NCBI GenBank assembly: GCA_004369045.1
Contig: ML213512.1
Coordinates: 370,698 to 434,697 of the forward strand
DNA length: 64,000 nt
Reading direction: 5' to 3'
Source of the DNA: Heliocybe sulcata
Lineage: Eukaryota > Basidiomycota > Agaricomycetes > Gloeophyllales > Gloeophyllaceae
Positions 10,364 to 58,078 of the stretch are shown here, piece by piece. The translations under genes were made by a program, and so were the position numbers. Below the pieces are notes generated by a model, which was given only the letters and a program-made list of their open reading frames with translations, was not told where the DNA came from and searched no databases. How positions within the stretch are numbered: position 1 is the stretch's first letter; every line of letters begins with the position of its first letter.

Positions 10364-13300
10364 TTATGCAAAACGAGTCGCTGTATGTCCGTAAGCAGCG
10401 AATGACAAGAAAAATGGCGGTTTGTCGACTGGGTGTGTATCCTTCGATCGTCCCTCCATATCGCACAGTCTCAGAGGGAAGCCACCGAAGGTCTGTCTCC
10501 GGTTGCGCTTCATTGTCTTCGCGGCCAAAGCTCCAGGGAGAGGACACAGCGCTAGGCGCTCAGATTGCTTCATCATGACTTCTTTCCGCCCAAGCCAGCG
10601 AGTGCCACTGCAAGCGTCTGGACCATGGGGATGCCTTTCAAAAGCAACGGCTCGTGCCCCATCCCCTATGGCAAAATCCCGGCGAGCAGGAATGACGTAC
10701 GCAGAGGGCTCGAACCCATCCAAGGTCGGCGATGCCGGAGCGCTGTGCGAGCGACTATGCGAACCGAACGTCCTAGTAATAGACCCGTTTAGTAATATAC
10801 TTCAAGAGCAAAGCGACGGCACGTACTCTTCGTTCAAGCGATCCGCTGCTTCCTCCAATTCTGCCCACCCAGAGCTAACAGGGCTAACAAGACCGATGGC
10901 CTCCTCGCAAGCTTCCTCCGGATCTGCCTGCTGCCGAAGAGGGAGCGTGGACTTTGGCCTACGACCCAGTGAGTGATGAATTCGGCTCGTTAACGGAAAC
11001 CGCTTACCTCAGCTTCTCGAACTGGAACGCATCCAAGGTCGACGCCGGCGCGCTGTGCGAGAGACTATGCAATCCGAACGTCCTAGTAAGAGACCAGTTT
11101 TGGTAAATATACTTCACAAGTAAAGCGATGGCACGTACTCTTCGTTCCAGCGATCCGCTGCTTCCTCCAATTCAGTCCGTCCGGGACTAACAGGGCTAAC
11201 AAGACCGATAGGCTGCTTGCAAGCTTCCTCCGGATCTGCCTGTTGCCGAAGAGGGAGCGTGGACTTTGGCCTACGACCCAGTGAGTGATGAATTCAGGCC
11301 CTTAACGGAAGCCACTTACCTCAGCTTCTCGAACTGGAACACATCCAAGGTCGACGCCGGCGCGCTGTGCGAGAGACTATGCGAGCCGAACGTCCTAGTA
11401 AGAGACCACTTTAGTGATATACTTCAAGAGCAAAGCGTTGGCACGTACTCCTCGTTCAAGCGATCCGCTGCTTCCTCCAATTCAGCCCGCCCGGGACTAA
11501 CAGGGCTAACACGACCGATGGGCTGCTCGCAAGCTTCCTCCGGATCTGCCTGTTTTCGAACAGGGAGCGTGGACTTCGCCCTATGACCCAGTGAGTGGTG
11601 GGTTCAGGCCTTTAACGGAAACCACTCACCTCAGCTTCTCGAACACAACACGGTTATCCCAGTCAGCCGCGAGCTTCCTGACATCCACATGAGGAGGGTC
11701 CTCTCGCGAACGGTCTCCCTCAGTGTCCTGCACTGCAGCCTCGCTGTGAACAACACCGGACGTTACGGTCATGCCTCGAGCCCTCCTTCTACGGGGAATC
11801 ATAGTCTCCGTAGCTTCTCGTTGCCGAACAGGAGCAGCAGAGTGTACTACCGTCTCATCATGCTGATGGTCATTCGTAGCAGACGGCAAAACTACAGCGG
11901 GTTCCGTATACGTTCGACCACTAGATGATGCCGAGAAAGCACCTGCACCAGAAGACGAGGAGGGCACAGCCCCCGCAGAATACACTTCCTTCTGAGACGT
12001 AGGCGGAGTCAATGCGATTGACAGAGTAGCAGTGGTCGGCGGAGTTACCTGCGTCTTCTCCTGGGCAACAAACGGCTGAGGAACACTTATATATCCAAAA
12101 GACGCTCTAGCAGGTGCCTCAGCAGGGTTCATTCGCTGAGCAGGAGTAACAAGAGACGCCATAGGCGCGACAGGTGCCTGAGAAGGACTAGGCGTCCGAG
12201 TCTTAGCACCGGTAGATTTAGCCTCCTTGATCTGAGAAGGCACGCGTGGCTGCGCAGGAGAAGGGCAAGCAGAGCATCGGGGAGCCTTCTCTTCCTTAGA
12301 CTCCGCTTTCCGACCTAGAGCATCACGCAGCGTCTTCCCAACATACAGGCGACTTGGAACAAAAGACGGACAGCGATCAGTAGAAGCAGGAGACACAGGG
12401 TTAACGGACTTCGAAGATCCCGGAGGTGTCGTGGACACATTTTTCGTCTCCACAGCTTCCGGTATCTGGGTCTGAGAGACAAGGTCTTTCGAAAGAGTTG
12501 GCACTTCATCAGTGGGAGTAGACGCCAGAGAGACGGGAGATTCCGGAGCCTTCATTTCCGGACTCTCCATCTCCTGCACCTCGATAATAGGAGACAGCGT
12601 CGGAATAGGCGATCTTTCTCTCGAGATAGGAGTCCGAGAGAGCACAATAGAATACAAAGACGGCGCAGCCTCAGGTCCCGTACATTCCACACGTGAAGTC
12701 TCGGAAACCAGGAGCATCGTCTCGACTAGCGACTCATCACTTGGAGTAGACAGGTCAGAGACATTCACAAGTTCCTCGGGCTCGGTCCTGCCCATATCTA
12801 GCTGACTAGAATCCAATACCGGAGACAGCTCAGCGAGAGTAGAGGACGATGACGTTGCAGATCCAACAGCGTCCGCTTCATGAACCGCAGCGACGGAGGA
12901 GTCAAGTGGCACAGATTCATCGTGCGTGGCCGCGCGCTCGCATTCCACCTCAAGAACGGGAGAGTCTGTCGCAGACTGCGCATCATCACCAGAATCATAC
13001 GACAGACAGATACCAGCGGGAGGAGAAGACGCAGCAGTCCCAGTCACCGGAGACAGCACTCTCAGAGCCAGAGCGGCGCGGAGCTTTCTACTAGCCTGTG
13101 GCCGACTAGGCACCAGAGGCTCCTGGTAGACACCACTGGAACGAGGATACACTATGACTTCCGCATCTGCAAGATCACACTGGACGCCACAATCCAACCG
13201 CCCAAGATCCGGAGCCGCCAAATCCACGACCTGAGATGGGTCCTCAAGCCCGTTTGCGTCCGTCGACTCCTCAGACCCACTCGTCTTCGCCGCTTCCGGC

Positions 13301-14643
13301 AGATTATCTTCCGTCTTCACGCCAAACTGCAAAGCCGTACTCGAAACGGACGGACAGGCGAACCCAAACTTGACCGGAGGGCTCTGAACGCCGAACTGCA
13401 AGACCCTAGTGGGGAGCGGACCGTCGTTGGAGGGCAGTTCGCACTTGAACTTTACCGGAGGGCTCAGAGCCAGACCCAAAGGACCAGAGCCAGAACGACG
13501 TGGCACAGGAGGCATGGACCGGCTTGTTTTCTTCACTGGTATGGGCGCTTTCTTCAATGAAGGTGTGCTCTCAACAACCGAGTCTGCGTTGAAAGTAGGG
13601 TCGCCTGTCCAGCGGGTCTCATAGAGTTCCGGCTCGCTGCAGAGGGATCCAGGCTCGAGCTTGACCTCCGTGTGAGTCAAGGGCGTAGGCTGAGAAACAT
13701 CCAAGCCAATGGACTTGAAGTACTCCGTCTGGCAGTCAGCCCTGAATATGGCGTCAAAATCCTTCTCGGCGTCCCAAGTAATGTGCATGTCGACAGCGGG
13801 AGCTTCGACAATGGCCAGGACGTCCGCAGAGCGAGGTGAAGGCGGCATATTGCAGGTTTCAGGGAGTTGAGGAGACTGGATGACAACCGGTGATTGGGCG
13901 AACCTGACGCTCCTTTCGGTGCCGTCCGCATCCTTTGCTTTAGGGGTGACTTGACAAGCAGTAACCACCTTGGCTGAGAGCGGGCTTGCGCAGGCGGTAG
14001 TATCGCCAGTCTGCGAGATAGCGGAGACACTGGGAGCAAGAGTAGGCCCACCGGGAGTATCGGCCTCCTCGCCAAGTTTCTGAGCAAGAATATAGTCTCC
14101 GAGAGTCATGACCCGCGCTCGCCCGGATTTCGAGACCTTCCGCTTCGATGGCTTTGGTTTTGGACGAGGTACCACGAGCTTAGGCATAGCCAAGAATAGA
14201 AGTCCAGCGAGAGTAGCACAAAAGGCAGCTACTGTGACGCCGGTGTAGAGGGTGTATGCGGCCTTGGATGGGTCATCGGACGAGAACGAACCGGCAAGAC
14301 AATAGATCTGATGGTCAACTTTTGAAAGGAGTGGACGTGAGTCTGCCCATTGATTCTTGAATATCCTGCCCAGACGGCTAGGGAACCACTCATGACCAGG
14401 TTTGTCAGGAACAAGCTCTATTTCCAGGGCCGATGGCAAAGGCTCCCCATCTGACGGTTCAAAGCTCAGCTGCTTGGGCTCTTCCGGAGGACTTGCTTCC
14501 AAGGTAGGGACCCGCTGCCGACCAGGAATACTCTTGACGAAGCGGCCAACGCTGCGAAAAGTATCCACCGGACTTATAAGGAACTGGATGATATACGGCG
14601 CATAGAAAATGGCGGAAACCGCCAGTGCAACGATAGGAAGCAT
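10364..14643 (-). CDS. Membrane protein with long disordered tail and tandemly repeated 3' exon pairs
   Basis: Unrecognised protein. Start is the ATG at 14643; frame upstream of it is open but begins with GTG. Exons on the reverse strand: 14643-11630, 11580-11449, 11394-11320, 11270-11139, 11082-11008, 10958-10827, 10772-10364, about 1,322 aa. Residues 1-25 form a first hydrophobic helix (IVALAVSAIFYAPYIIQFL), and a second follows near residue 155 (VTVAAFCATLAGLLFLAM) just before a basic stretch rich in Lys and Arg. The remaining 1,100 residues are Ser/Pro/Thr/Glu-rich and probably disordered; an internal duplication carries SPPVKF...LQFGV twice. The single large reading frame stops just past 11630, but that stop lies inside a 49-nt intron. 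Downstream, three pairs of exons (132 + 75 nt) repeat in frame, each pair adding 69 residues (starting near AKSTLPVRKQADPEEA, ending FQFEKLR). The last exon may hold another intron, so the extreme C-terminus is uncertain. Confidence 0.7.
10710..11640 (-). repeat. Three tandem ~311-bp copies, each an exon-intron-exon-intron unit
   Basis: Three head-to-tail copies with period 310-312 bp, each carrying exon A (132 nt), a 54-56-nt intron with donor GTACGT and acceptor TACTAG, exon B (75 nt in the two inner copies) and a 49-nt intron. Splice sites and reading frame are kept in every copy. The copies differ by scattered substitutions. The 5' boundary shares TTCGAG with the 3' boundary, so unequal exchange at short homology could have made the array. 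Confidence 0.9.
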
Positions 14644-36381: not shown

Positions 36382-37781
36382 ATGTCGAGTCTCACTTGGA
36401 TACTTTCTTATACCATGGGCCTTCGCGACTTTGTGTCTTACTATTTCACTCGTGTGCCGGACGGGACGGCAGAGGATGGACGACATGGATCCGTACCTGC
36501 AATTGAAGCGCTTTCGGAAGCGAATGCGAGAGCCGATGTCGAGAAGATGCAGAGGGAGATGGAGGAGATCAAGAAGCGCTCGGAGGTGCTGAGGAGAGAG
36601 GCGGAGGCGGCGCAGCAGCGGCTGCAGGAGGAAGAGAAGCAGAGGAAGAGCACCCAACAAGAGCTCGAGCAGAAGAAGCAAGAGTCGGCAGAGCTCTCCG
36701 TGCGCCTGCGGGAAGCCGAGAGCCGCTTGACCGCGCAGGAGGCCGAGCTGCTCCGAACCAGGGACGAGGCCGACAAGCACGCCACTGCGCTCGAGGAGCA
36801 CACGAAGGCGCTCGCCACAGCACCGGAGGCAGAAGCAGAGCCCTTTCTCTCCACAACCGACTCCGTCTCGGAAAAGGCCGTCATCGCGCTCGTGCAGGAC
36901 ACGAACGCCGAGATCCACACGGCCGCGCAGCGCATCGCCGAGTCGTACAAGTACACCGCGCACAAGATCGACGCGAGCCCGCAGGGCGCGGCCGCGCGCG
37001 AGTGGGCGGAGCACGCGCTCGGCCGGCAGATGACGCAGCTCCTGCAGGAGACGGACGACGCGACGATCGTGCAGGTCGCGTTCCAGGGCACGTTGTCGAT
37101 GTACGCGCATTGGGCGGCGCGGTGTTGGTATTTTGATTTGGCGCGGGAGGCGGAGGTGATTGGGGATATTTATGATGATGTGTATTATCATATGCGGGAG
37201 ACGGGTGAGTGTGCTCTGCTTCACCTGGGGTTATGATTGACTTGCGGATTTGGTTGGGACTTGAAGAGCCGTTGGCCGTTGCGAGGAGGTGGCGGGCGTT
37301 GACGCGCAAGCATATCCAGTCGGTCGTGCATGGGGACTCGGATATCGCGGCGGCCCTCGTTCCCCGGATCGCGGAGCGCCTGACGGACATCCTGCTCGTC
37401 GCGGGGTGCAAGGCGCCCTTGAAGCAGGTCACGGAGACGATGAAGTTCAAGTTTATGGACAAGATCAAGGCGGTGATCGGGCACGCGCTGGAGATCAACA
37501 GGCTCATCGGGCAGGAGGCACTGGCGAGCGATTTCGAGGTGACGTGGGTGTCGCCCGAGGAGGCGTATGATCCTACTTGGATGGCGGATATCGATATCGA
37601 GCAGGAGGCCGGCAAGAAGGACGCGGAGGACCTTGTGCGGGTGCTGAGCACGACAGAGCTCGGCCTTGGGCGCATGGAGAAGGTGAAGAATGATGGCGGC
37701 AGTGAAGAGTGGAAGGACTCGTGCTTGGTGAAGCCGAAGGTCGTACTGGAGTCTATGGTGGAGTGGGACGGAGAGAAGTAA
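36382..37781 (+). CDS. Coiled-coil protein with C-terminal globular domain (copy 1)
   Basis: Two exons, 36382-37204 and 37267-37781, splitting after phase 1; about 445 aa. An ATG 33 nt further in (MGLRDFVSYY) is an alternative start. Residues about 50-160 form a long charged coiled coil (heptads rich in Glu, Lys, Arg, Gln). The rest is a mainly helical domain with SEKAVIALVQDTNAEIHTAA, ARRWRALTRKHIQ, LTDILLVAGC, VLSTTELGLGRME and KPKVVLESM. The same domain, with the intron at the same place and phase, occurs in the gene at 56604. I do not recognise a named family, and the function is unknown. Confidence 0.8.
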
Positions 37782-38868: not shown

Positions 38869-41365
38869 ATGGGCACTGCGGTCGGTCCCGTTGTTGGGAT
38901 CATCGTCGGAGGTGTGGTCCTCGTACTCGTCTTGGTGGTCTTGATAGTCCCTTGGGCTAGACGCCGATCTAGGGAAGCCAGGACAGCGCTGAAAGATGTC
39001 GAGCAGGCCTCCTCGTCCCCCGTTTTGCACTCCACAGCAGACGAGCACTGGGTATCTACCGTACTCATCACATCCAAACAGGACGCGAGCGACATTGCCC
39101 GCCAAAAGGCGCCACCCAGCCAAGATGGTGCACATGACTCCCAGGCGTCCCAAGTACGGTCCTCCTACGATAGAGATTCTATAACCAAGTCTCTCGACCG
39201 CTCTTCTGCTTGGGACCATACGTCCACAATGTCTGGAGACAGCAGCCTTTCCAATGTACGTCTATCAACTCTCTCGCTACGCATACTGACCACATTCGCA
39301 GGTTCGACTTGTCACTGCAAACGAAGTCATGCGCCGGCCACTGCAGCTTGCGGTCGCACGATCAATGGAAGACCTTCCCCGCGCATCTACAGACTTATCG
39401 CAGCCCGAGACGCCCAGTCCCTCACCCCCAACCTCGTACCCCACAAAACCCTTCCCCTCTGAACGAGCAGTGGGACTCCAGCGGATGAAAGCGGGGCTCC
39501 CGCCCTCCCCAATGGAGCCCTTAATAGAGCGTCGCGAGAGCTCCCAGTCCGGCTCGACCAACGCACCTGAACCGCCTTCCCAACTCCCTCCCCGTCCCAA
39601 TCCCGCCCTTCTCGCCCCTTCTCAAGCTCTCCTTAACACCGACATGGCCTCCCCAGCGTCCACTGTCCCCAGCCACCGCCTCATCTCAGCCTTCGAGGGC
39701 AGCCTGTTGACAAGCAACCCCTCCGTGTCCTCGACTGTCCGGAGCCAGATCGATTCGCTGCTCACAAACGAATCATCGGCGGCATGTCATCCTCTCCAGT
39801 CCACGTCGTCCCCAAGGTCGTCCTACGGAACCACCGCCGCTACGTCCCCACCAGTCACTGCAAAGACCGTGCGCCCCGAACTAGAAGACCAAGTGCCCTT
39901 CGCGAGTGTTCTTCGCTCGCCAGAAGACCAAGCGCCCTTCGCGAGTGTTCTGCGCTCGCCAGAAGACCAAGCGCCCTTCACGAGTGCTCTTCGCTCGCCA
40001 GAAGACCAAACGCCCTTCGCGAGTGTCCTGCGCTCCCCAGAAGCGATACAGATGTTCCTCCAAGCCCAAGACTACGAGACCTGGCCCTTCCGCTCCAGTA
40101 TCCCGTCAATGGCGCCGCACGTCCTGGCGATCCCGTCCCCACCACCGTACCCGCCGCCCACCACACCTCTGCCGCCCACACCCAAGGCTCTGAGGGCCAC
40201 GCCGTCACTGATGATGGTTCCTGTGCGCTCGCGATCTGATAGTGGGACAAAGCTCCGCCCCATCTCGCTTGCATCGTGCGAGCCTGAGCAGCCGTCCGTG
40301 TCGGCGAGCCCCTCTTCGAACGCAACAGTAAAAGGAACGGGAGCCCTCACTCACCCACTGGATACAGACACGTCAGGATCAGATCACGATTCTATCACCT
40401 CCCTGAAACTGCCTCCCCCTCCCCCTCTGCCTATCATCAGGCCACTCTCGTCCCCTCCCTCCCGACGCCCGTCCGGCCCTCGACGACCACCGAAACGCGG
40501 CCGCGACGCACCCTTCCCCGTCGCTCTCAAATCCTCAGATTCCCTTCCTCTCACCACATACGCATCCGGCGGCGAGTGCGAAAGGACGCTCTCACCGCCG
40601 CCTCGCATACCTTCTTTCCCGCCGCTGACGCCCCTGTCGATACGTGCTATCATGGTGGCGCTGGAGCACGAGCCGATGCCGGAGCTGAGGCTGGACTATG
40701 ACAGGCAAGTGGAGGCGGCGAGCAGGCCTGACTCGGTGAAAGGGCTGGTGCTCCCGTCGATATGTACGCTGTCGACGTTGAGCCTTGGGCGGGCGACGCC
40801 GGATCTGAACCTCCCGCAAGAGAAGAGCTCCTTTGCTGTTCATGCACAGGAATGCGAGTCGTCTAGGTCAGAGCCAGAAACACTATCCCGTTGCGTGGTG
40901 GAGAAGGATTATGGCGAGACGAGCACCCCAGATCCGCCTGTTACCGAGGAGCCGCTTCCACTGGCATCTTCTCGACCAGCGTCATTCAGACCCAGGTGGA
41001 AGGACATCTCTCCCTCAGTGGCAGACCCTGAGAGCGCCCCGATCCCACCCATCGGTCGCCGGCACCAATCCCTCCTCCCGCCCATCGCCCACCAGTCACC
41101 AGCACCCTCCAGACCCGTCTCCCAGGACTCATTCTACACGGGGGACCTTCGAAACAGCACCCCAAGCACGTCCTCCGCCTGGGACCTGCTCTCCTTACCC
41201 GAACCATCATCGACAGAGCGGCCGCAGCTCGCAATCGAGACGTCTTTCCTGGATAGTCAGCTCGAGAACGTCCGCCTCGCCTGGTTGCGCCCGCCATCAC
41301 CGCTGAGGGTCGCGAAACGACCTAGGCCTGTATCCGACATGGTATATCCAGTCAATTCATTCTGA
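38869..41365 (+). CDS. Large single-pass membrane protein with Ser/Pro-rich tail and 13-residue repeats
   Basis: Exons 38869-39255 and 39302-41365, phase 0, 816 aa. As in its relative at 34433, a short lead (MGTAVGPVVG) runs straight into one hydrophobic helix (IIVGGVVLVLVLVVLIVP) and a basic stop (WARRRSRE), so it should be a signal-anchored protein with an intracellular tail. The tail is rich in Ser and Pro, with proline runs (PPPPPLPIIRP, PPSRRPSGPRRPPKR) that could bind SH3 or WW domains. Four copies of EDQxPFxSVLRSP lie at 39884-40039. No enzymatic domain is visible and the function is unknown. Confidence 0.75.
39884..40039 (+). repeat. Four tandem 39-bp units coding EDQxPFxSxLRSP
   Basis: Four adjacent in-frame 39-bp copies differ at a few bases: V, A, A and T after EDQ, then FA, FA, FT, FA. 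The near identity indicates recent amplification, and copy number probably varies between strains. Confidence 0.9.
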
Positions 41366-41644
41366 TATTTATACATACGGACACTTCCCTGGTTATTTAT
41401 CATTATTCTTTTCGGGATCCTCATTGTCGTTCGTTTCGTACTCACACTAGCCGGAGAACCCCCCATGTCACTGTCGTTGCTATCGATGTCATCGCATGCT
41501 ATCCTGTATTACGTGTCGTAGATTGTGTATTATGATGTAGTTTGATGTTCAGATAGTCTCTGAACCGGTACAATAGATGTTGGTATCAATACAACTTTAT
41601 GTCTCGCTGCTTCGGGATATGGATAGACATATGATGTCTCCCCG

Positions 41645-43657
41645 TCAAGCACTCTCTATACCACTCCCCTCCTGTAAGCGGAACTGCCTTATGCTCTCCC
41701 CGCCCTCCTCTCTCCTCCATGGCACCTCCTCCTCCCAATGCGTCACGACAACAACCGCCTGCTCCTGACCAACCCCTCCCTCCCTCAAATACCTCTTCGC
41801 ATTCTCGATCATACTCCCATCCATCCCACTCCAAACCTCGTCCAGGATCACCAACGGCGGCCTGCCCACAAGTGCGCGCATAAGCAGCACGAGGCCCTGC
41901 TCTCCCGCGCTCAAGTCTGCGAAATTCCGTTGTCCAAACCCCTCGCCCTTCTCACTGTCCCCCCATCCGCTCGGCCCTAGCGCGCTGATAACCTCCTCCA
42001 CCCTCTCCAGACGCCACTTCTCCTCCTCCTCCGTCAGACCGCCCTGCAATCCCAGCCCAACACCGCGCTTTCCCTGGGGCACATACGTCCCATCAAACCC
42101 CGTCCCGACCGCCTCCCGCACGGTCATCGCCCGGCGGCGCGGGAAGGCGTTGTAGATCTCAGGGGAGACAATGCCGACGCGCGTGGCAAGGAAGGATGTC
42201 GCATGTTTGGAGCGAGGCTTGCCGAAGAGCGTGAGGTGGGAGGGGGAGCGCTGGGTGTAGGACTGGGGGTGGTCGCCGATGAGTATGGAGAGGAGGGTGG
42301 TTTTGCCCGAGCCTGGACAGACATGGGTGAGTGGATATGTTATTGAGAGGATGTGGGTGTATGTGCTCACCATTAGGGCCTTGTAAGTGCCAGCGGTCGC
42401 CCGCGTGAATTTTCCAGGTGATATCTTTTAGAACCTGGAATTGATAATCGCATCAGTGGGAGTGGGGGAAGGCAAGAAGGCTGACGTACGTGCCGTTCAT
42501 GATACCTCACGTTCACATTCTCCATATGCACGAGGACATCTCGCTTCTCCCTCGGTATACTCGTCTGCTTAGGACTTGTGCTCTTACCACGCCCGGTCTG
42601 GGCGTTCCATTTCTCGCTGAGTTTACGGAGGATATCTTCTTTCTCCCCAGTTCTGACCGATCCGCCCATGACTGCAGCAACATGGGTGATCCATTCGGGG
42701 ATGGGATCCTGCTTTCTCAGGCCGAGGACGATCCGGGGGCTGCGGGCTGCGTGCAGAGAATGTAATATAGTAAGAAGTAAAGGTCGGGTGGCTGCATCGA
42801 CACCCGCTACGGTTGAGAGCGTCAGCGAACTGTAGCGAGACGAAAGAACCTGTACATACTTAGAGGTTCATCAAGTAGCATTAGCTCCGGCCGTACGAGC
42901 AGCGCCTTGAGTATCCGCGCCTTCCTCGTCTGCCCATTACTCAGCGCAATCAGCGGTAAATCCAACAACCTCTCCAAATCCAACTTGTGCACAAGCTCGT
43001 CGAACAGCTCCTTATCCTCCCGCGTCATCTCCACAGAATGCACGTTGTCGCGCCTCGCAAACTCGGGCAGCGTCTCGGGGAACATGCTCTGCCGGAGCGT
43101 AATCCTGTCTTCCTCCCAGACGGAGCCATAGCGTGCGGTGTAGTCGTAGAACTGGCCGCCCGAGGAGCGTGGCCGGTGCGCGAAGGAGACGAGGGACACG
43201 GCTTTCGCACTGCTACTGGAGAGGAATGGGAAGATGCCTCCGTGAGGAGGGGGTTTGAGACGGTAGTTGCCATCTAGAACCTGATTATTAGTACTGTTGT
43301 GTATTTCCGAGGTATACAGGTAGATAGAAGGTATACAATGCGCATATACGGATAAAATCGCTCAGTAGTAGTCATACTCACCTCGAGCAATGTTGTCTTC
43401 TCTCCCGAGCCAGCGCCGACGACAGCCCAGCTCTCACCCTCTCGCACCGTCCACTCCAAACCACAGAAGATTGGAGAGGTGCTCTTGGTGTCATCGAAGC
43501 GATAAACATTGCATTTTGGAATATGAATCAACAGGTCCTTTGACAAGGCATCCGTGTGGATCAACGCCGAGCATGGCAGGCTCTTCAGACGAAAGCTAAT
43601 AGTTGTTCGCCGAGTCCAAGACATGGCTTCAGGTAGAGATATCAGAGGTCGAGGCAT
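41645..43657 (-). CDS. ModF-like tandem ABC ATPase (yeast YDR061W type)
   Basis: Five exons on the reverse strand: 43657-43382, 43280-42860, 42806-42490, 42434-42371, 42312-41645; 581 aa. No transmembrane segment. It has two ATP-binding cassettes. Cassette 1 has an altered Walker A (GAGSGEKTTLL, with Glu where Gly is usual), signature LSNGQTRKARILKALL and Walker B ELMLLDEPL. Cassette 2 has a normal Walker A, GPNGSGKTTLLSIL, split by an intron, signature LSAGEQGLVLLMRAL and Walker B LVILDEVWSGMD. The N-terminus is rich in Arg, Ser and Thr without acidic residues (MSWTRRTTISFRLKS), which suggests mitochondrial import. Such soluble ModF-like proteins are widespread in fungi and poorly characterised. 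Confidence 0.85.
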
Positions 43658-45039: not shown

Positions 45040-45801
45040 ATTCAATGTTCAGTATCGGAGACTCAGTACTCAGGGACAGATGTAGTCGATGACGAAGAGG
45101 ACTGCCGCTCGTCCGGCTGCCTTATTTATAGGAATCATCGATAATGAATTTGAGGCAGTGCAGGAAGCGAGATTGCCACAATGCGGTGCAGAAGCACTGC
45201 GGGTATAGCCGGTCATAGCCACAGTGGCAGAGCGTCGGTTTGAGGCTCGAGTCCAAAGCTTAGTGTATGGCCATGTGCCAATTTCTGAAGAATTCTGACA
45301 CATTTTTGCTGTGTCTCGGGAAGACTTTTTTTACAAGACCGTGCGAGCCATATACTGCATGTCAGAAAGATCGGTGTGCCATCTTACATATTTTTGAGCT
45401 CATGCATCCGCGTATTAGCGGAGAAACAGTTCACTTCCGAACATCATGCTACCCTCTGTACTAATATATGCCTACGATTCTTGCTTGATTGTTTTGAGGA
45501 AAAGATATAACTATCTACATCTACAACTATTAGGAAGACCGTCTACCAAAAAGTACGACAGTCAACAATACGGAGACAACCTAGGCTAAATCTACGTAGA
45601 TCTAGGCGGCTGACATTTGAGAGCATTTTGACGAGGAACAAAAACAGCAATAGACAAAGCAAGGTACAAGAACGACGAGGGACACAATAAAGGCATCATT
45701 ACGGAAGAGACATGGAAAGCTCTACCTCAGAGCATTTTGATAAGATTCACACAACTACTTGCAGTCCAAGGAACCGAAAACAGACGGACAGAAGCAAAGT
45801 C
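45040..45801. other. Intergenic, 0.76 kb
   Basis: Promoter of the penta-EF-hand gene and 3' flank of the next reverse-strand gene. Purine-rich AT-rich region near 45480-45700. No gene seen. Confidence 0.5.
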
Positions 45802-48540
45802 CTACCAGAGACGCCTTGCACTAGCGCCTCGAGTAGTACCCCCTCTGCCTCTGCCTCTACCCCTGCCTATCTTTTTGGGCGCGGTGGATATAAACCCGCC
45901 TCGCTTCTGCTCCTCCTCCTCGACCTGATCTGCCCAGCTAGCCTGCGCGGCAGGAGCTGCGGAGGTCGTACCCCAAGGCGTCGGCCCAATCGCGCTCTCA
46001 GTCGCCCACTTGTCGCTGACAACAGACTTCACGTCCCACGGCGTCTCCCCGACCGCGCTCTGCGTCGCCCACTTGTCGCTGACAACAGACTTCACATCCC
46101 ACGGCGTCTCCCCGACCGCGCTCTCTGTCGCCCACTTGTCGCTGACAACAGACTTCACGTCCCACGGCGTCTTCCCAACCGCGCTCTGCGTCGCCCACCT
46201 GTCGCTCACGACGGACTTCGCATCCCATGGTGTCTCTCCGACCGCACTCTCCTTCGCCCATCTATCGCTGATAACCGACTTCCCGCTCCAGCCTCTGGCA
46301 GCCGGCTTCACGTCCCAGGGCGTTTCCCCGATTACGCTTTCCGTCGGCCACCTGCCGCTGGTAGTTGACTTCGCGTCCCACGTCGTGTTCCTGGGCGCGC
46401 TCTGCGTCGCCCACCGGTCATCGTCGCCCCGCTCACTTTCTACGGGCTCTCGGCTGCTTGGTTTCACATAAGTTTGAGTCTGATGAGTCTTCTTGATACT
46501 CCACGGGGTTTCACCTACAACACTGTCCGTTGCCCACGGCTCTCCCCCAATCGACGGCGCAGGCCGCCTTACCTCAGGATCGCCCACGTTCGAGCCGGTA
46601 GACTTGCCCGCCGGCGCCGCATCCTCAGTCGTCCAGGATTTGCCGCTAAAAGACTTTGACCTGGGCTGAGTGACCTCGCTGCGATCTGCATCCTGGGCAT
46701 GAGCAGACTTGCTTGCTGAACTGTTGGCCGTCCACGCTTTGCTGCCACTGCTGTCGTTTAATGTCCAAGCCTTACTGACAGACTTCGAGTTCGCTCCTGA
46801 GGCGTTGCTAGCTCCGGACCCGGCCGCTGCACTTGAGCCTTGGCCAGTATCCTTCCTCCACGCCTGGCCAGTACCGTGGTTGCCGTTTCTGGCTCGCCGC
46901 CCCCGATCTGTAACAAACAAGACCGATGAAGACTCCGCCCGAAAACTCCAAGGGCAACCGTCACTCACCTCCTCCCCTTTCCCTTCCCCTCCCTCTTCCT
47001 CTGTTCCCACCCTCTTTCCTCTCCCTCTCCCTTTGCTCCCTCTCCAACTGTTTTTTCCAAGCGGCGCGAGTCTGACAGATGCCCTTCCCGCACGTCGTCC
47101 CATGGTCCGGGCAGAGCATTTCGTTCGGGTCTGCCGCGGCATCCTTCACCTCCGTGCCGTACCCCGCCCAAAGATTTTCCTCGTCAGGCGTAGAGGGAGG
47201 GGGAGCCATGTCGGCGGCCTCAAAGACGTGGGACTCCAGCTCTCCGCCATCCATGATTGTCATATCGTCCATCTGCGTGACCATCGCAGACAAGGGAAGA
47301 TACTCCGAGTCTGCTTCCTCCTCATTGTCCGTGTAGATGGAAGGACTGATGAACACCTGTCGGCTAGGGTGCACCAAGCCGGGCGGGCCTTGATCGACAG
47401 TGATGCCATACGGGGTTAGCAGGCCTGGCGGGGCGACCGGGATGGGCACGGAGGACGTCGGGCTGGGAGTGGCGAGTAGGCGGCCGTCACTCGTACTGCC
47501 CAAGGATGATGGCTCGGAGGAGCCGGAGTCGGATGGCGAGATCCCCCCTGTGCAGCATGCAACATTAGTCTGGTGTCTCATCGTCCAGTGCATCCTCACA
47601 GAGGTCAAGGGGCCCACGGTCCTCGGGCCCTTCATTGGCCTGAGGAGACCCTATGCTCCACGCAGGGCCGCCGACTGAAATGCGCTTCTTCGGGGTGGAG
47701 GCTTCTCTTTTCTTTGCCTCGAGATACGCCTCCGATCCAGCTGGAAAGATTGGCGAATGTAAGCTAGTGAGGATAGGTTCTTGTAAATAACATACGAGGC
47801 GGGGCTCTAGTAGGCGGTGGCGGTGGAAAGTGTCCAACCGGTAGAGGCCGAGCGAGGGACCTATGTATCACGTCTTGGGGAGGCAGGCCGCATCCGTGCG
47901 TCGAAGGATACGGATATTTTACAATCCTGGATGCGATCAGATAGGACAGATATCACCAACAGGCACGAGTGACATACGAGTTGTACAGACGCCACTGGCT
48001 GGCGTGGAACCACGCAGCCTCCACCTCCTTGCGTCTCCATCCTGCAACAAAGCCAAGCAGGCTGTAATTACTGCGGCTCAGAAATAAGACCGACATGCTC
48101 AGTGCTCACCATCTTTCTGGACGTGGCGCCCTGTGTTATAACTGCAATAGTATATCATACTAGCGCGGTCTTTTTCGTCTGCTTGAGATGTGCGCAAGAA
48201 CTCTTGCCACCTGTGGGCTCCGAGGAGGGCACGGTCATTGGTAAACCCTCTCTTCACTTCTATGATGACTATACTCTGGGACTTGAATGACAAATGGTAT
48301 TAGATGCGGATCTGGAGCCGGCCCGAGTCGATCACGATTGGCCAAGGAACATACCGAAGGTTTATGATAGAGGGCATTCAGGTACTCTGGATCACCGAGA
48401 ATACACGCCAGCCAGAAGCTGCAACGTATACGATCCCCCGGTAACTCCATGTTGGCGTTGATGGGGTAGGGCTGGTACACAACGAAGTACTTGGGTTCGT
48501 CGTCCCAGGCGGGTGGGGGTGTCGGAGCTCTCTTTACCAT
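45802..48540 (-). CDS. Disordered protein with Trp-periodic 21-residue repeats and an RG-rich C-terminus
   Basis: Reverse strand, start ATG at 48540 (MVKRAPTPPPAWDDEPKYFV). Exon 1 is 48540-48355; later exon pieces include ALLGAHRWQEFLRTSQ, WRRKEVEAAWFHASQWRLYN, FPAGSEAYLEAKKREAST and a long one running to about 46970; the last is about 46910-45802. The upstream exon chain is in frame where checked but not complete. A Cys/His cluster (CPDHGTTCGKGIC) is followed by a basic Arg/Glu helix and RGRGRGR. The last third is about eight repeats ending in TPWDVK...DKWATESAVGE, then WADQVEEEEQ and GRGRGRGRGG. Not a family I recognise. Arg-Gly ends and a possible zinc knuckle suggest RNA association, but that is inference. 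Confidence 0.6.
45975..46560 (-). repeat. 63-bp tandem repeats, about five near-identical and three degenerate units
   Basis: Each unit codes 21 residues, consensus DVKSVVSDKWATESAVGETPW without the last residue counted twice. The near-identical units lie at about 45985-46265; upstream in the protein (higher coordinates) are weaker copies such as GRWPTESVIGETPW and DDRWATQSAPRNTTW. Trp recurs at spacings of 10 and 11. Confidence 0.88.
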
Positions 48541-50193
48541 GATGAATTCACGAACAGGCAATATGTTCGACTTCAAGACTTCAAATTTTTAAAGCTTCAA
48601 GCTTCATTTAGAGACGATCGGCCGCCTTATCATGAGGCATGCCACTCAGATACGTTCACGATACATGCTTCGACTCACAACGTACCGGTAAAGTGCATCT
48701 GACGAGCCGTGGCCCTCGAAGCCAAAAGACGCGTCAATAGCAGTTAACAGACCAGTCGACGATGAGCGCTGAGCGACGTTAGTATGAGTACGCGCACGAT
48801 GAGGGTAGCAGTTCGAGGGAGCTCAACATGAACGGTTTGGGAAGAGTATCACATGTGCAAGGACCCTGAACACCCTAGAGCAGGTCTTAAGTTACATAGC
48901 GCCAATTTCCTAAACACATCACTTACATTTCGGCGACTGGGCTGTCTTCATATGCGTGGTGCGGCGCGAAATGTGCAGGCATTTGCAGTGCTATCAAGAT
49001 TAAACGTTAAATGAGCAGCTGGCACGTAATGATTAATGCATCCATAGCGAGACGCGTCGCGGGTCGCGTTTGCCACAACCGCGTCTTCTGGATCCTAACT
49101 CTCACTCACACTGCTGTGAACCACCATGTTTTACAAAATGACTGCTGGCTCCCTACTCATATACTTTGGTCTTCATTCTGCGAGCATAGCTGAAGAAACT
49201 GATAACCGTCCCGCAACTATGCTCAGCCGGAGATGGAACACGGCCTATTGCTATGGCTTGCTGACGGGGAAGCGAGCTGGGGACGAGCTAAGATGACAAG
49301 TCCACGGACCGTGGATACTCCCTCGATTCAACGCGCATTTATATACCAGAGTCTCGGGTGAGTGTCCCTGATCAATGCGGAGGCTTTATGCTTTCTGATT
49401 TCAACATTCGATACCCAGGGACCTGGCGCATACATCCCTGACCTCCATACATGCATCAAAGTCTCTCTATTCACGTCTAGCTTCAAGCCAAGCGCCCTTG
49501 TGGAAACAGTATCTGTAGGTGCATGCATTACTCTTCTTGCCCTGCATCCGAAATAATGTTCAGGACCGCCACCAGAAGTCATTATGCGATGCCAGTCAAG
49601 TTTTCGAATGTTTCTCGGGCCACCGGGTTGTCGCCTGCTTCTGCGAGAGGCGTATATTCCCTCTGTTGATGACACCCTCCGTTGTATGACATCGACATGC
49701 CAAGGACCCTGGGTGACTGTGTACGGATGCCATGAGACTTTGGGCAAGTCTGCTTTTGACTGCGCATATACCCATAATCTCAGTGCGTACCTTGTACTTT
49801 CGCCATCACATCGAGCACCTTACGGTTGTTAGCACCCAATTAACGACTTCTTCATTAGAGTGTATCTGCAGTGGTAATTCCTACAGGTGGGGCCGCTCAA
49901 TAAGGGAATTTCGAAGGATTTTTGCGACGTGATTGGCTGGGAGCTGCTCCACACTGTAGGAATTACCACTGCAGATACACTCTATTACCCGATCCGGTTA
50001 CTCTCTCAGCCCCAAATAGGGGCTAAGACCACGCTTCAGAAATAGCAAGGCGTCTTCTATATTTACGTTTCCCGTTGAATTATGACGACTCACGGCCTTG
50101 CAATATTAATGCTGCTCTCTTTCTCATGTCGACTGGTGACCGATAACCAGCAACACTGGTGGCTTGAAGCTCGAAATCTCTGTTCCTGCTGAA
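48541..50193. other. Gene-poor stretch of 1.65 kb
   Basis: No supported gene. It contains the inverted-repeat element at 49856-49984 and the promoters of the two flanking divergent genes. Confidence 0.5.
49856..49984. mobile_element. 125-bp inverted-repeat element flanked by TA (MITE-like)
   Basis: A 29-bp stretch beginning GAGTGTATCTGCAGTGGTAA at 49858-49886 recurs as an exact reverse complement at 49954-49982. TA dinucleotides abut both ends (49856-49857 and 49983-49984), as in a TA target duplication. The similarity extends inward with one indel. The 67-bp core codes nothing. This fits a non-autonomous miniature transposon of Tc1/mariner-like type, and the perfect repeats suggest recent insertion or recent activity. 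Confidence 0.75.
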
Positions 50194-56289: not shown

Positions 56290-56603
56290 GGTAATGAGCT
56301 GTGGGGAACCCCCGTTCGAGCGAATAGTCAGCCTTATAAACAGTCAGGCTGAGCATGCCCGTGACGCCGCCGCTTCATCATCATGACGAACACTTATAGT
56401 ACCTGTACTTGTATTAGGCTTCGATGGACCATGCTTGGATACGGATTGAATGCGAGATTTCCACCAAGGAGACCTGTATGTGGATTCTGATATCAAGTAT
56501 GTCGAGGCTCTTATCAGTCCGAGGACTCCGAGGTCCGAATTCAGGGTTGCCTGACCCTTATATACGTACACCAGCACTTTTCGTCCTGTACCATCTTCGA
56601 GAC
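56290..56603. promoter_or_regulatory. Divergent promoter region of the Hsp70-like and coiled-coil genes
   Basis: Only 314 bp separate the two start codons, so regulatory sequence is probably shared. A CTTATA and a TTATATACG lie near 56332 and 56560, possible TATA-like sites facing opposite ways. Open frame on the + strand extends upstream of the chosen start. Confidence 0.45.
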
Positions 56604-58078
56604 ATGGAAGGAATCCGAACTTGTCTCAAATTGCTGGGAGCTGGAGCTCTCCGCGTCCTCCAACCTCTCGTCCCGATCGCGATAGCCATAGCGAGGGATC
56701 CAAAGGCACCGTCGGGGCATGAAGGTCATGGCGCCCAGGATGAAGAAATGGTATTATTGACACATCATGAGGCCGATTATGCCGGGAGGCGAGCTACAAG
56801 GGAGCAGGAATCTGGCGAACTAGAGGGCTTGAGGAGAGCTTTACAGGAAACCAGCGAGACGTTGGAGCAGGAGAGGCACAGAGCGAATCAGCTGGAAGCC
56901 GAACGTAACAAGTTGGTGCACGCTATGAAAGATGGCATTAATCGCATGGAGGCAGAGCTTTCAGAGCGTGACCACCGCTACCAAGAACTCGAGGCGGGTT
57001 ATCATGCACTGGAAAAGCGATTGGAGGACCAGAGGCAATTGCTGGAAGCTCGTTCGGCGGAGCTCCGTGTCGCCCAGACTTTCCTCACAAAGACGGATAC
57101 GATATCAGTTACGGACGTCAAGACCATGGTCACGGATCTCAACACCGACATTTTCCAGGCCGCTGTGATGCTCGCGGACATGCTTAACTTTCGCCAAAGG
57201 ACCAAATACGGAGTGGCAGAATCGAAGCACGCCCAAGGCAGAGTCAAAGCCTGGTTGGAACCAGACTTTGCTCGGGCCTTGAGCGGTGCAAACGATTCGT
57301 CCATCTTGCAGATTGCGGTTCGAGGCGTGATCTGCCACCATTGCAACCTCATCATTAACAGCTGGCCGTCTCAGGTCTCGGAAGGCGGAGTGCGTAGTCG
57401 TGAGGAATACAAGACCTTATACAGTAGTATGATCGGATCTGGTGAGCATATCGTCTTCATCAATCGGGACAACGGCTAAGACTACCTTTCATAGAATCAC
57501 AGGCCGTGGCAGGCCGCTGGCGCTCTCTGACCCGCGAGCACATGCGACGAACGGCGGGCGAGGGCGGAGTCGAGCATGAGTTGTATCTTTCGAACGCATC
57601 CTTGCACGTCCAGCTCCTTTGCAGGGTAACTGGCCGTATAAGTAACGAAGAGCTTCGGTCTTCGATTGACCATGCCGTCCATGGCAAGTTGTCCGACATT
57701 ATCCGGCTTGCTCTGCGCCTACGAGAAGTAATCGGGGAAAACATCATCTCCTGTGATTTCATAGCATTGTTGCCAAGTGGGGACGAGATATTTAATGGCC
57801 AATCGATGCAGGAGGATGGAGCCGACCCATCCGAACACCAAGACAACCTGGGCGGTTCGCGAGTACTTTGCACGACGGAATTAGGGCTGTTGCGGGCCGA
57901 GACGGTACCTAGGGAGGATGGGAGTCAACGGATTCAGGATGTTATCCTGAAACCCAAGGTAGCCTTGACCTCGCTCCTTCTTGCCTCGACGCTTCAGGCA
58001 CTGCCGAAGGAGCGTGGTAGAAGGCACAGGGCAGCGGCTGACGACAAGCAGGCCGCCTTTAAGGGAAGCGCTACTTGA
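56604..58078 (+). CDS. Coiled-coil protein with C-terminal globular domain (copy 2)
   Basis: Exons 56604-57441 and 57495-58078, phase 1 at the join, 473 aa. The start is set at MEGIRTCLKLLGAG; the open frame reaches back to 56424 with another ATG. An N-terminal hydrophobic stretch (LLGAGALRVLQPLVPIAIAIA) is followed by a coiled coil (about residues 65-165) and the domain shared with the gene at 36382: DVKTMVTDLNTDIFQAAVML, AGRWRSLTREHMR, LCTTELGLLRAE, LKPKVALTSL. The intron is at the same position and phase in both. The two genes are clearly related but well diverged. Function unknown. Confidence 0.8.

Follow-up and report, generated by a model that had tools for sequence, protein, structure and literature searches.

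The question raised by this locus was where a gene ends when its open reading frame runs into a tandem repeat. The gene lies on the minus strand of a 64,000-nucleotide stretch of Heliocybe sulcata DNA (here called the window), which belongs to a 31.6-Mb assembly in 51 contigs. Its start codon (ATG) is at 14643, and our reading of the open reading frames agreed with the original prediction that the unspliced frame stops at 11626. Tandem Repeats Finder (TRF) placed an array on the same strand at 10712 to 11644 (period 312, 3.0 copies, 89% matches, score 1476), and this was the sole TRF array in the window with a unit of more than 100 bp. When introns were removed, the reading frame contained a single stop, the terminal TAA at 10364, and coded for a protein of 1322 residues.

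We started with the layout of the array. Read on the minus strand, each copy consisted of intron A, exon A, intron B, and exon B in that order, and the last copy merged into a unique 3' exon. The first exon of the gene (11630 to 14643, 3014 nt) was followed by intron A1 (11581 to 11629, 49 nt, GTGAGT...CATAG), exon A1 (11449 to 11580, 132 nt), intron B1 (11395 to 11448, 54 nt, GTACGT...ACTAG), and exon B1 (11320 to 11394, 75 nt). The second copy contained intron A2 (11271 to 11319, 49 nt, GTAAGT...CGTAG), exon A2 (11139 to 11270, 132 nt), intron B2 (11083 to 11138, 56 nt), and exon B2 (11008 to 11082, 75 nt), and the third contained intron A3 (10959 to 11007, 49 nt, GTAAGC...CGTAG), exon A3 (10827 to 10958, 132 nt), and intron B3 (10773 to 10826, 54 nt). 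The terminal exon (10364 to 10772, 409 nt) completed the gene, and its first 64 nt corresponded to the third exon-B segment plus one extra codon. All six introns in the array were in phase 2. All six were delimited by the spliced frame as well as by the gene finder described below. Codon scores, the gene finder, and the spliced frame supported all of the internal repeat exons, together with the alignment of the copies in the case of the B exons.

This layout bore out the coordinates and the reasoning of the original prediction and modified some small details. Three copies were present as claimed, but their lengths were 310, 312, and 313 bp rather than a fixed length of about 311 bp. Exons of 132 and 75 nt had been assigned to every copy; exon A was indeed 132 nt long in all three, but the 75-nt exon B was found in two copies only. 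The splice sites, which had been given as GTACGT/TACTAG and GTAAGY/TAG, were intact in every case, but intron A1 starts with GTGAGT.

The boundaries of the repeated unit did not coincide with those of the exons. The start of the unit lay within exon 1 (which ends in GAGAAGCTGAG), so that it included the final 14 nt of that exon (TTCGAGAAGCTGAG), and its end lay within the terminal exon, after 61 to 64 nt (GTTCSAG). The word GTTCGAG was found at both ends of the repeated stretch. Exons B1 and B2 each consisted of 61 nt resembling the start of the terminal exon and 14 nt resembling the end of exon 1. Thus, the duplication is in frame, as had been claimed, but the duplicated segment is not a whole exon pair; both breakpoints are inside exons, and exons B1 and B2 are therefore fusions of the two ends.

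The spliced unit was 207 nt, or 69 codons, when compared without the further codon of copy 3. At the DNA level, only the 312-bp unit was a multiple of three, so the array looked out of frame as DNA and was in frame once spliced. The alignment of the copies contained just two indels, one of 2 nt in intron B2 and one of 3 nt in the last exon-B segment, and these fit a spliced reading because the 2-nt indel is intronic and the 3-nt indel is exonic.

To examine the predicted splicing, we used a purpose-written gene finder whose training set was 200 kb of this contig from outside the window. Training was started from an intron length near 55 nt and from splice-site weights, both set by hand, was unchecked against annotation, and dropped genes scoring under 10; the last round kept 53 genes with 411 introns (median length, 55 nt) and 33,079 codons, and 1,157 of the 200,000 bases were N. 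The output for these 200 kb indicated a very intron-dense genome, and this density, together with the content of nearby genes, suggested a fungus and probably a basidiomycete. When applied to the locus, the gene finder predicted a gene that started at 14643, ended at 10364, and contained all six array introns, exact to the base.

The alternative is that the gene ends at 11626 and that the array beyond it is noncoding, either as satellite repeats within the 3' untranslated region or as the decayed 3' end of the gene, in keeping with the stop in the unspliced frame. The full gene model scored 141.2, and the score dropped to 88.8 when the sequence was cut at 11615, which retained the stop at 11626. 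In addition, none of 300 dinucleotide shuffles of the region from 11623 to 10200 reached the score of the full model (best, 98.9; mean, 91.2). The shuffled sequences also yielded introns (mean, 1.42; maximum, 8), and therefore a count of introns cannot by itself separate the two readings. The gene finder does make errors, since it called two weak introns in exon 1, which is open throughout, at 12409 to 12353 (57 nt) and 11942 to 11892 (51 nt). Both are multiples of three, their donors ranked at the 20th and 22nd percentiles of model introns, and both calls are probably false; otherwise, they might be optional introns.

Splice-site quality and codon usage gave further information about the array. 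Its donors fell between the 45th and 99th percentiles of model introns, and the acceptors of the A introns fell between the 67th and 76th, but those of the three B introns reached only the 18th. Intron lengths (49 to 56 nt) were close to the model median of 55 nt. Codon scores were derived from 41 long open reading frames in the same 200 kb, with stops counted at -6. In the predicted frame, the five whole repeat exons scored 0.11 to 0.20 per codon, compared to 0.10 for exon 1, and the last exon-B segment scored 0.08. All 18 forward frames of the six array introns (three per intron) had negative scores. In composition, then, the repeat exons are coding-like and the introns are noncoding-like. 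The terminal exon scored near zero in its unique part (-0.012, with its own stop counted), which is a point for a noncoding 3' end. Six intact splice-site pairs, intron lengths typical of the genome, and coding-like exons would be unexpected after 10 to 12% of unconstrained drift, and they argue for a coding array.

The branch-point words were less favorable to splicing. The word YTRAY was absent from five of the six array introns, as a noncoding array would allow, and it was present in 210 of 416 model introns and in 96 of the same 416 after reversal of their interiors. CTRAY was found in none of the six, compared to 150 of 416 model introns, and CTNAY was found in three, all of them A introns, compared to 234 of 416 (126 when reversed). 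NTNAY was present in all six, but this word occurred in 369 of 416 model introns and in 323 of 416 reversed ones and was hence barely discriminating. Introns B1 and B3 carry an ACTAA word near the acceptor, which may be the branch point. Intron B2, which is 2 nt longer, lacks this word, and if ACTAA is the branch point, that of B2 may be shifted or weakened. About half of the model introns also lacked the YTRAY or CTNAY word, and the shortfall in the array amounts to at most two independent misses because the six introns are copies of two. The weak branch-point words thus count against the splicing reading without overturning it, and they leave room for inefficient splicing.

The results of these analyses indicated that the locus very probably contains a spliced, in-frame, intron-bearing array at the 3' end of a single-copy gene, and a gene ending at 11626 is a very improbable alternative. 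The independent gene finder and the codon scores bore out the earlier claim of three tandem intron-bearing copies that are in frame once spliced and code for 69 residues each. The consequence for annotation is substantial, as 317 residues would be missing from a gene model that overlooked the short intron A1.

The proposed origin of the array starts with an ancestral single-copy gene in an intron-dense fungus. This gene would have contained two introns close to its 3' end, both in phase 2, and coded for a Ser/Pro-rich protein with a probable N-terminal membrane anchor. A stretch of about 310 bp, made up of the final 14 nt of exon 1, intron A, exon A, intron B, and the first 61 to 64 nt of the last exon, would then have given rise to three tandem copies; we infer that a single ancestral unit was duplicated. 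Each extra copy would add 69 residues, and about 138 would be added in all, because the spliced unit is 207 nt and both breakpoints are at the same position in the frame. The repeated splice sites would remove the stop-bearing introns, which are presumably spliced in the cell, and the longer tail would be tolerated or mildly useful. We also considered whether the duplication itself created the introns and rejected this idea, since A1 and B3 each also have a unique exon as a neighbor. For the same reason, introns A and B are likely to be older than the duplication.

We also enumerated splicing outcomes. With five internal exons that may each be kept or skipped, there are 32 combinations (counting the full set), and every one was in frame and had no stop but the terminal one. 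When a single intron was retained, the protein ended early, at codon 1006, 1057, 1075, 1126, 1144, or 1195 for introns 1 to 6, respectively. The array might accordingly be read as a source of protein variants, in which exon skipping or pairing of paralogous splice sites produces in-frame mRNAs that code for varying numbers of the 69-residue unit and intron retention produces graded truncations. The missing ACTAA word in B2 and the weak branch-point words across the array would be compatible with such variation. However, the shared phase follows automatically from copying one ancestral pair of introns with the same phase. Among internal exons in the training genes, 123 of 363 were symmetric; two ancestral introns sharing a phase, about a one-in-three chance, suffice, and so the uniform phase is no evidence of isoforms. 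Short fungal introns are spliced by intron definition, and exon skipping is uncommon, which also disfavors this reading. We consider the production of variants quite unlikely. A broader version, in which the phase-2 array makes splicing a length dial that yields in-frame tails of one, two, or three units as well as graded truncations from one gene, with array length also varying between strains, seems very unlikely.

Divergence among the copies was examined by part, with gapped columns dropped from the counts. Intron A varied at 11 of 49 columns and exon A at 20 of 132, intron B varied at 11 of 54 and exon B at 7 of 61, and the shared lead was invariant (0 of 14). An assembly artefact is unlikely, since the copies vary at 49 ungapped columns. 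Copies 1 and 2, 1 and 3, and 2 and 3 differed at 30, 37, and 34 of 310 columns, respectively. These values correspond to differences of 10 to 12%, and therefore the array is not a recent expansion.

The original prediction took divergence with preserved splice sites and frame as a sign of selection. The dN/dS ratios (NG86) for pairs 1-2, 1-3, and 2-3 were 0.44 (0.059/0.135), 0.30 (0.073/0.242), and 0.33 (0.073/0.217), which is the expected direction. The difference between exons (27 of 207 columns variable) and introns (22 of 103) was weak (Fisher's exact test, P = 0.07, uncorrected). We also compared the observed changes to simulations in which the same changes were placed at random, and the P values were uncorrected for the several tests performed. 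Nonsynonymous changes were fewer than simulated (16 versus 19.4; P = 0.11), synonymous changes were more numerous (11 versus 7.4; P = 0.09), and second codon positions accounted for fewer of the variable sites (5 of 27; P = 0.04). The absence of stops was unremarkable, as it was expected in 40% of simulations. All of the measures point to mild purifying selection between the copies and none proves it, so the sequence comparison suggests such selection weakly, and this weakness is also what a noncoding array would lead one to expect.

The same alignment was used to examine whether ongoing unequal crossing over between copies keeps the array uniform and variable in length. The 5' part of copy 2 tended to resemble copy 3 and its 3' part copy 1, as would be expected from one crossover, and 25 of the 34 sites at which copy 1 or copy 3 was the odd one fit the best split. 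However, this footprint was marginal (permutation P = 0.03 for one direction and 0.056 for two). The pairwise differences were nearly equal. The longest exact tracts common to the copies were just 41, 52, and 32 bp, which argues against frequent exchange. We regard ongoing exchange as unlikely. Judged by its divergence, the array is not recent, and we would not assume that its copy number is unstable.

We next examined the predicted protein. The first exon codes for two hydrophobic segments (residues 1 to 26 and 131 to 160) followed by a long Ser/Pro-rich stretch (residues 161 to 1005; 13% Ser and 11% Pro). The two N-terminal segments suggest membrane anchoring and fit the earlier description of the gene as coding for a membrane protein. 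Residues 1006 to 1180, which roughly correspond to the repeat part, contained 14% Glu. A known domain was rejected as an explanation, since a Pfam search of the protein gave 0 families and a search of PDB chains with the repeat unit gave 0 chains, each at E values up to 1. Our best guess is that the protein has a membrane-tethered, probably disordered tail that was lengthened by the array.

Searches of the 31.6-Mb genome gave at least one match for the array DNA, at least one for the first-exon protein, and at least five for the spliced 3' part, and all of these were at this locus. An origin from a paralogue or gene family was rejected because the array DNA and both protein pieces matched this locus only. 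The first-exon query had no relative among plasmids (megablast), and it gave 23 pattern matches with 0 confirmed in genome_contigs and 1 pattern match with 0 confirmed in viral_contigs; these negative results say little because none of the three is a collection of fungal genomes. Structured RNA or tRNA was also rejected as an explanation, as the window contained 0 Rfam matches at the gathering score and 0 tRNAs.

As a class of change, the array is an intragenic tandem duplication that carries introns, that is, an ordinary partial-gene duplication of a known type. Adjacent copies of exons and introns lie within one gene, and the spliced unit keeps the frame. Coding minisatellites in fungi are usually short and intron-free. 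In Aspergillus, such in-frame tandem repeats reportedly lengthen the protein (Levdansky et al., 2007), and the array in H. sulcata resembles them in this respect. It differs from them in that its unit is 310 to 313 bp long, includes two introns, and is in frame only after splicing, whereas the DNA unit of an intron-free coding minisatellite is a multiple of three. Surveys that look for multiple-of-three repeats could therefore miss the array, whose DNA units of 310, 312, and 313 bp look out of frame and noncoding.

Animal genes such as Dscam and U2AF1 contain tandem exon duplications whose copies are alternatively used. As in those genes, exons were duplicated here together with introns inside one gene; unlike in them, all copies are most likely included and the breakpoints are inside exons. 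In a mutually exclusive exon cluster, each mRNA would include one copy; any combination of exons in the present array would be in frame, and the sequence does not decide. The nearest described system of which text was compared was the leucine-rich repeat (LRR) genes of Tetrahymena (PMC6564038), which have tandem 90-bp exons and phase-2 introns and are attributed to unequal crossing over, possibly with retrotransposition. Both systems have tandem exons of multiple-of-three length, phase-2 introns, and copies in frame. The ciliate arrays are spread over thousands of genes, with exons of a single length that number in the tens of thousands and code for LRRs (PMC6564038), whereas the array described here is in one gene and has three copies, a two-exon unit, and no known domain. 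Among the literature matches listed, which were seen as titles and abstract openings and leave most subscription papers outside their coverage, there was no intron-bearing tandem exon array in a fungus.

Finally, we surveyed 264 kb (the 200 kb and the window) with TRF for units of up to 500 bp and scores of 60 or more. The survey produced 12 rows, some of them overlapping; seven were outside predicted genes and five were inside, and one of the latter, the array described here, contained predicted introns. Two other repeats with multiple-of-three units were noted inside predicted genes of the window, neither with a predicted intron. One, a 39-bp repeat in four copies at 39883 to 40043, is in the predicted gene at 38869 to 42765 and codes for repeats of a SPEDQAPFASVLR-like peptide. 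The other, a 63-bp repeat in about five copies at 45972 to 46282, is in the predicted minus-strand gene at 45727 to 48982. Two further predicted genes, at 36415 to 37781 and 56450 to 58078, had a similar makeup of a coiled coil followed by a helical part, and when their translations were compared by eye, they appeared to be diverged paralogues.
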